Assembly (NCBI RefSeq): GCF_003633715.1
Contig: NZ_RBIE01000001.1
Span: 248,001-312,000 of the forward strand
Length of the DNA stretch: 64,000 nt
From: Thermovibrio guaymasensis
GTDB lineage: Bacteria; Aquificota; Aquificia; Desulfurobacteriales; Desulfurobacteriaceae
Direction: 5' to 3'
Part shown: piece by piece, positions 38,262-39,757 of the stretch
How the letters are laid out: each line of letters begins with the position of its first letter
Position numbering within the stretch: the stretch's first letter is position 1
Translations under genes and position numbers: made by a program
The notes under the pieces: generated by a model
Database searches by the model: none
Told to the model about the DNA's origin: nothing
Seen by the model: only the letters and a program-made list of their open reading frames with translations

Positions 38262-39035
38262 ATGACTATAAATATAACTCCTCAGCTTTCTCCTACTGAA
38301 GATGCCGTTCTTTACGATGATAAAAAACACAAAGTTGTTTACCTTGGAACTAAAGGTATTGATAAAGGCTCCGTTGATGTCCTTTCTTATCTTCTGATAG
38401 ATAACGAAGAGGCTATTCTTATAGACCCGGGAGGGTATTATCTGTTTCCCCATATGGTTCAGAAAGTTTCAAAGTATGTAACTTTAGACCAGGTAAAGTT
38501 CCTGTACTTCTGCCACCAAGACCCAGACGTGTGCGGTTCTATACCTATGTGGAAGGACGTTTGTCCTCAGGCGAAGATTGCTATTGGTGAACTTTGGGTA
38601 AGGTTCCTTCCCCACTTTGGCGTTGAGGATATTGAGGATAGCGTTTTTCCAATACCAGCGGAAGGGACTACCCTTCCTGTTGGAAAGTTTCACGTTGAAG
38701 TAATTCCCGCCCATTATCTCCACTCTCCCAATCACTTCAGCCTTTACGATCCAGTTTCTAAGTTCCTCTTCAGCGGGGATATTGGTATAGCTTTGGGAAA
38801 CTTTAATTACTTGGTGGTCAATGACTGGATTAGTCACCTAGACTACCTTTACACTCCCCACAGGATACTTATGGCTAACAATAAAGCTCTAAGAGCTTGG
38901 CTTTCAAAAGTAAAGAAGTTAGACATAGAAGCTATCCTTCCTCAGCATGGAGCCATAATTCCTAAGAACTCTGTCGAATATTTCTTTAAGTTTCTGGAGA
39001 ACTTGAAATGCGGAACAGATCTGATTTCAATTTAG
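38262..39035 (+). CDS. ODP-type diiron protein (metallo-beta-lactamase fold, flavodiiron-like core without flavodoxin)
   Basis: Protein of 257 residues. It has the flavodiiron/ODP version of the metallo-beta-lactamase fold but no flavodoxin or rubredoxin domain. Candidate iron ligands are H85, D87 and D89 (FCHQDPDV), H154 (LHSPNHF), D173 (FSGD) and H229 (LPQHG). The usual H-x-E-x-D-H reads H-x-D-x-D-V here. Its end overlaps the start of an MCP-like gene by 28 bp. Sensor ODPs that bind O2 at a diiron site are known to be encoded beside sensorless cytoplasmic chemoreceptors, which fits this pair. An O2 or NO reductase role is the alternative. Confidence 0.85.
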   Translation: MTINITPQLSPTEDAVLYDDKKHKVVYLGTKGIDKGSVDVLSYLLIDNEEAILIDPGGYYLFPHMVQKVSKYVTLDQVKFLYFCHQDPDVCGSIPMWKDVCPQAKIAIGELWVRFLPHFGVEDIEDSVFPIPAEGTTLPVGKFHVEVIPAHYLHSPNHFSLYDPVSKFLFSGDIGIALGNFNYLVVNDWISHLDYLYTPHRILMANNKALRAWLSKVKKLDIEAILPQHGAIIPKNSVEYFFKFLENLKCGTDLISI

Positions 39036-39757
39036 AGCTCTCAAAAGCCCTTTCAGATTTAGAGAGGGGTATTCTTTCATTAAGTAGAGTTTCTGAAGTT
39101 ATTGATCGTTTAGTTCCTCAGGTAGAGGATATTTTATTGACTAACAGCTCTACTATAGGTGAAAATATTGAAGAATTGAATGAAATATCAAAAAATCTTC
39201 AGGATTTTGTTGAAAGTTTCAAACCAATAGTGGAGGAAATTAGTAAATTTTCCTCTGATTATGATAAGTTGTTAATAAGCCTTAAGGAAATGAATAAACA
39301 CTTAGCCGGTATAGAAGAAGTTGCGTCTCATATTGAGCTCATAGCTATTAATGCCTCTATAGAAGCATCAAGGGCAGGGGAAAGCGGTAGAACTTTTGCC
39401 ATAGTTGCTAAGGAAATTCGCGATATGGCTAAGAAAACTTTTAAGTTAATCTACGAAATTCGTGATGTTGAGAAGGAACTAGAACCAATTTTAAAGAAGA
39501 TTACAGATAACGTTAAAGCTATGAATGAACTTAAGGATAAGATGGATAATCTTATCGTTAGTATTAATAGGGTAATATCCGTTTCAGAGGAACTTAACAG
39601 GATAAATACTTCCCAGTCAAAGGTTGTTCTTGAACTTAAAGGTCTTACTGGGGTCTCAGCAGCTATTCAAAAGGTAGTTTCAATACTATCTGCTGCTAAA
39701 CGCCGTTTTGCTGATGCATTTACTTCACTTTTCTCTTACTTTAAAAAATCTTGTTGA
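39008..39757 (+). CDS. soluble MCP-like signalling protein without sensor domain
   Basis: Protein of 249 residues, predicted all-helical and with no membrane segment. Residues 108-142 ([20 protein letters not shown], then [15 protein letters not shown]) match the hairpin tip of methyl-accepting chemotaxis proteins. The CheA/CheW contact QTNLLALNA is altered to HIELIAINA. Flanking coiled coils are only about 100 residues per arm, shorter than in classical receptors. It overlaps the ODP gene upstream, so ODP is the likely input. No che gene is in the window. RBS GGAGAAC. Confidence 0.8.
   Translation: [249 protein letters not shown]

Follow-up and report, generated by a model that had tools for sequence, protein, structure and literature searches.

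An overlapping gene pair for an oxygen-binding diiron protein and a sensorless chemoreceptor in heat-loving Aquificota

The pairing of an oxygen-binding diiron protein (ODP) with a chemoreceptor is already known from Treponema and is common in bacteria; the gene pair described here adds a further example, from heat-loving Aquificota, and not a new system. According to PMC7666581, Treponema denticola has a single CheA, and its ODP TDE2498 shows genetic coupling to TDE2496, which is a receptor devoid of membrane and sensing modules that can modulate CheA. Like TDE2498/TDE2496, our locus links an ODP to a receptor without membrane span or sensing module, in a genome with a single CheA. Unlike the Treponema genes, the two genes overlap, form a two-gene unit and belong to an aquificote, and the tip of the receptor carries family-specific changes. 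We consider that the pair probably consists of an Fe(II)/oxygen sensor of the ODP type and the cognate cytoplasmic receptor through which it controls the ordinary CheA array, in the manner of TDE2498/TDE2496. It adds no new kind of mechanism, but widens the range of a characterised chemotaxis module for O2 sensing by a diiron protein to include anaerobic thermophilic Aquificota, and the proteins, being probably thermostable, may be of use for studies of sensor-receptor complexes.

The window, that is the whole stretch of 64,000 nucleotides that was analysed (G000:C1:248001-312000), lies in a host genome of 1.6 Mb, whose closest named relatives are Desulfurobacteriaceae, a Thermovibrio MAG among them. 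The locus is organised as follows:

38169..38190, plus strand: intrinsic terminator of acs, the gene upstream, GGGGGCTTCTGCCCCC followed by T6
38262..39035, plus strand: odp, 257 amino acids, oxygen-binding diiron protein with the flavodiiron core (metallo-beta-lactamase fold) and no flavodoxin domain (Pfam PF19583, phmmer)
38996..39010, plus strand: Shine-Dalgarno sequence GGAG, 8-base spacer and ATG of the receptor gene, all within the ENLKC codons near the end of the ODP
39008..39757, plus strand: soluble chemoreceptor gene, 249 amino acids, one symmetric helical hairpin, no sensor domain and no transmembrane span (MCPsignal, AlphaFold, Foldseek)

The two reading frames share 28 bp on the same strand, as had been noticed in the original prediction. 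They are flanked by acs upstream and by the convergent moeA downstream, the stop codon of which is at 39758. With the acs terminator in front and the convergent moeA behind, odp and the receptor gene form a separate two-gene unit. The start codon of the receptor and the GGAG 8 bases upstream are kept in all ten Desulfurobacteriaceae pairs examined (with a GTG start in one), and in these pairs the start signals are contained within the codons of the conserved ENLKCG-like end of the ODP. The location of these signals inside ODP codons suggests that the two genes are translationally coupled, and such an operon would ensure that the ODP and the receptor are made together. No che gene was found among the immediate neighbours, in agreement with the first description of the locus.

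The ODP was assigned to Pfam PF19583 with an E-value of 3.2e-64 and a score of 216.8 bits (curated cut-off 27.2). This was the only Pfam domain found in the 257 residues, and no flavodoxin or FMN domain was detected, so that the protein is indeed a flavodiiron core lacking flavodoxin. The best PDB matches obtained with phmmer were 6qrq (1.5e-64) and 6qnm (3.6e-61), both of which are named oxygen-binding diiron protein. The residues of the predicted iron site are located at:

38514..38540, plus strand: first iron-ligand motif, H85-Q-D87-P-D89-V90-C-G-S, invariant in 10 relatives
38721..38723, plus strand: H154, predicted iron ligand, placed by profile alignment to 4dik at the LHWP histidine of flavodiiron proteins, invariant
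38778..38780, plus strand: D173, predicted bridging ligand, placed by alignment, invariant
38946..38948, plus strand: H229 (QHG), predicted iron ligand, placed by alignment, invariant

All six predicted ligands (H85, D87, D89, H154, D173 and H229) are invariant among the ten relatives. They reproduce the set of the solved ODPs, namely H, D, D, H, D, H, the first motif having V as its sixth residue, and the alignment shows that HQDPDV is identical in both crystallised ODPs, 6qrq and 6qnm. In flavodiiron proteins, the first motif is H-x-E-x-D-H and a ligand histidine occupies the place of V90. The structures 4dik and 4dil, which carry A or N for the last histidine of the motif, are presumably engineered variants of the Thermotoga maritima flavodiiron protein. 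The H-x-D-x-D-V motif had been presented as a departure from known ODPs. The motif is present, but because 6qrq and 6qnm share HQDPDV, the valine is a trait of the ODP family and is not peculiar to the window protein. The iron site was placed by sequence alignment because the AlphaFold model of the ODP, built from ten sequences, was poor (pLDDT 63), its C-terminal third being unreliable.

By analogy with TDE2498/TDE2496, the window protein would be an ODP-type Fe(II)/O2 sensor: it would bind two Fe(II) when the cytoplasm is reduced and iron-replete, and the binding of O2 would then alter both the state of the protein and the way in which it contacts the coiled coil of the receptor. A variant of this reading holds that Fe(II) in the cytoplasm, and not O2, is the main signal of the ODP and that the receptor steers by iron availability. 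In its favour, the title under which the T. denticola system is cited in PMC7666581 calls it an Fe[II] and oxygen sensor. The sequence, however, does not separate the two ligands, and strict anaerobes near vents meet O2 gradients; we regard the iron variant as unlikely. A different possibility arises from the metallo-beta-lactamase diiron core, which the window ODP has in common with flavodiiron proteins (4dik, 1vme, 1ycf): the ODP could be an O2- or NO-consuming enzyme of that type, with a receptor that is coincidental or merely reports its activity. We find this very improbable. Flavodiiron proteins possess both a flavodoxin domain and the histidine at the sixth position of HxExDH, and the window ODP has neither; the valine replaces one ligand histidine just as in sensor ODPs, and ODPs are repeatedly linked to a receptor in different phyla, with either gene order.

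The second gene encodes a protein that matches Pfam MCPsignal (7.4e-18). No transmembrane window was found in its 249 residues and no sensor domain was found in it, which bears out the initial view of an MCP-like protein without input domain or membrane span. The tip stands at the exact middle of the chain, flanked by 124 residues on either side. AlphaFold predicted an all-helical structure (pLDDT 86.8), for which the best Foldseek matches are cytoplasmic domains of chemoreceptors, including that of the T. maritima soluble receptor (3g67, 3g6b; 3g6b was the Foldseek match), which has the same fold and is also short (213 residues compared with 249 here). Fold matches beyond chemoreceptors, such as Smc and toxins, were discarded as coiled-coil noise, the model being all helix. 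In the preferred reading, the receptor would be a dimer of helical hairpins devoid of a sensor of its own, entering the chemoreceptor array by its tip, which is located at:

39323..39430, plus strand: hairpin tip of the receptor, residues 106-141, conserved among receptors linked to ODPs within the order

The tip of the window receptor differs from that of the canonical receptors of the same genome, which read EQTNLLALNAA at the stretch where it contains HIELIAINA. This had been interpreted as an alteration of the CheA/CheW contact. The difference is real, but the substitutions are mostly common to the ODP-linked receptor family, so that HIELIAINA is a local version of a tip conserved in the family and not an unusual sequence. 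Furthermore, the core of the canonical tip (N, E, R, GE, GR, F, ER) is retained at the usual places, and the receptor of G022, the order-level outgroup, has a near-canonical tip. Because the core residues are kept, the changes are mostly family-wide and the outgroup tip is near-canonical, we regard the tip as particular to its lineage in form but intact in its core. The tip was also compared with that of the Spirochaetaceae ODP partner in L097, a pair in which the ODP is about 40% and the receptor about 23% identical to the window proteins. One residue, E110, a glutamate at a canonical asparagine position, is nearly invariant in the receptor family and may have a function in the tip. We counted against our explanation that the tip is unlike that of canonical receptors and that its near-invariant glutamate could change kinase coupling. 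There is a slim chance that this family-specific tip couples the receptor to the array in a way that differs from the cell's canonical receptors, for instance in an inverted or weakly activating manner; if so, it would let O2 override other signals.

Of the 24 genomes of the order, 11 carry the pair, ten with the genes together and one (G021) with both at adjoining places on contig C11. The genes that surround it differ between the genera compared, and the sensor and the receptor stay an overlapping two-gene unit despite these differing neighbourhoods. A short MCP-like gene (196-355 amino acids) directly adjoins the ODP gene in 63 of 80 loci of relatives from several phyla, these 80 being the loci that best matched two peptide patterns, so that the fraction is no estimate for all ODPs. 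The ODP comes first in 8 of the 63 and the receptor in 55. The receptor had been described as unusually short, a statement that does not survive comparison with these partners; homologues lying far apart, which had been named as an observation that would speak against the pair, were not the pattern met in these loci and in the genomes of the order. The distances between ODPs and those between receptors were correlated in a mirror-tree analysis (r 0.88 for 14 pairs and 0.76 for 11 pairs, 0 of 2000 shuffles), and since species relatedness is still included in these values, the correlation shows co-inheritance only. The conservation across genomes places the observations on the overlapping genes beyond chance, and the ODP-receptor pairing is real and old. 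The literature searched holds no description of the pair in Aquificota; the primary ODP paper, outside that search, may list such homologues.

The host genome encodes exactly one CheA, and the operon to which it belongs also codes for CheW, a receptor, CheV and a CheY-like regulator (the last by sequence only). Three matches to the FliM/FliN family were found in the genome as well. Each of the nine pair-bearing genomes that are at least 90% complete likewise has one CheA, and two genomes with no CheA hit, G001 and G015, also lack the pair. The only pair-bearing genome without a CheA hit is G011, a draft of 83% completeness in 300 contigs, which we counted against our explanation; among the pair-bearing genomes at least 90% complete, none keeps the pair without CheA. 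This co-occurrence points to CheA as the output but is suggestive only, because few genomes are without CheA. In 18 relatives among the best 80 loci, mostly Methylococcales, cheR, cheD and cheB are found in the same locus as the pair, and in L119, which was read in detail, cheR-cheD-cheB are in the same direction just upstream of it.

These data bear on the original prediction that the pair may signal to something else than classical CheA, with a tip that has diverged from the CheA/CheW contact. The family-wide substitutions of the tip, above all the near-invariant E110, and the absence of a che gene next to the pair would agree with such an output, as would ODP paralogues of the same order that are fused to GGDEF or adjoin Roadblock- and GTPase-like genes, since ODPs may serve other outputs. 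However, the canonical core residues are in place, the outgroup tip is near-canonical, and the single CheA accompanies the pair in 9/9 of the genomes at least 90% complete and gave no hit in two genomes that lack the pair. We judge a non-CheA output unlikely, and the prediction is not upheld in this respect. The proposal that, as in Treponema, an ODP-type sensor of O2 and iron has its own cytoplasmic receptor lacking a sensor domain is, on the contrary, supported. By analogy with TDE2498/TDE2496, the ODP and the receptor would form a complex, and the receptor in the array would raise or lower the activity of the single CheA and change swimming through CheY. The outcome would be oxygen avoidance by an anaerobe.

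Several other ODP and chemotaxis loci were noticed. Two loci of the host, L071:4118-7364 (G000:C1) and L072:3566-6759 (G000:C3), each encode a protein of 611-622 amino acids with two MCP domains, no membrane span and a degenerate second tip, paired with a protein of 444-462 amino acids with two to three CheW domains. They are adjoined by cheR-like genes but no CheA, and L071 also by cheB and an EAL protein; similar pairs occur at G004:C31, G011:C243 and G024:C25. We discarded the idea that the ODP-receptor pair is part of these tandem-MCP/triple-CheW loci, as seven pair-bearing genomes (G002, G005, G006, G007, G010, G013 and G022) are without them in a search of 25 genomes.

The ODP units of Methylococcales type, whose locus includes cheR-cheD-cheB, likewise have an ODP adjoining a short MCP-like protein, but the gene order is reversed and the partner, of about 202 amino acids, has two divergent tip motifs in contrast to the one canonical tip of the window receptor. 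Partners of about 200-270 amino acids with two divergent MCP-tip-like motifs were observed in these loci (for example L119:4281-4889) and in L103, L105, L106, L110, L111 and L134. The two motifs of these proteobacterial proteins are roughly 110-130 residues apart in one chain, and are perhaps a single-chain mimic of the tip of a receptor dimer.

ODP reading frames of about 604-667 amino acids, mostly of Rhodospirillaceae type, are present in L101, L109, L151, L158, L165 and L168; their long C-terminal part gave no Pfam match in the two tested (L101 and L165). Another family of the class has an ODP that stands alone, with no receptor nearby, and lies directly before rsmH- and ftsI-like genes (L086:4601-5368, L087:4592-5368, L088:4561-5325) and comes after a protein of 147-158 amino acids, the L087 copy being without a Pfam match.

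The host itself has a second ODP (L069:2208-3881; G000:C3, about 35.2-36.9 kb), a fusion of 557 amino acids with a GGDEF diguanylate cyclase domain and with HQDPDI as the first motif. ODP reading frames of similar length recur in the order, and no paper on diiron O2 sensors linked to GGDEF was found in the literature searched. A third type of ODP within the family (L084:3876-7094, L085:4463-5648) adjoins Roadblock/LC7-type genes in L084, where a gene for an Arf/SRPRB-like small GTPase is also present, and a similar small gene in L085, pointing to an MglA/MglB-like output.
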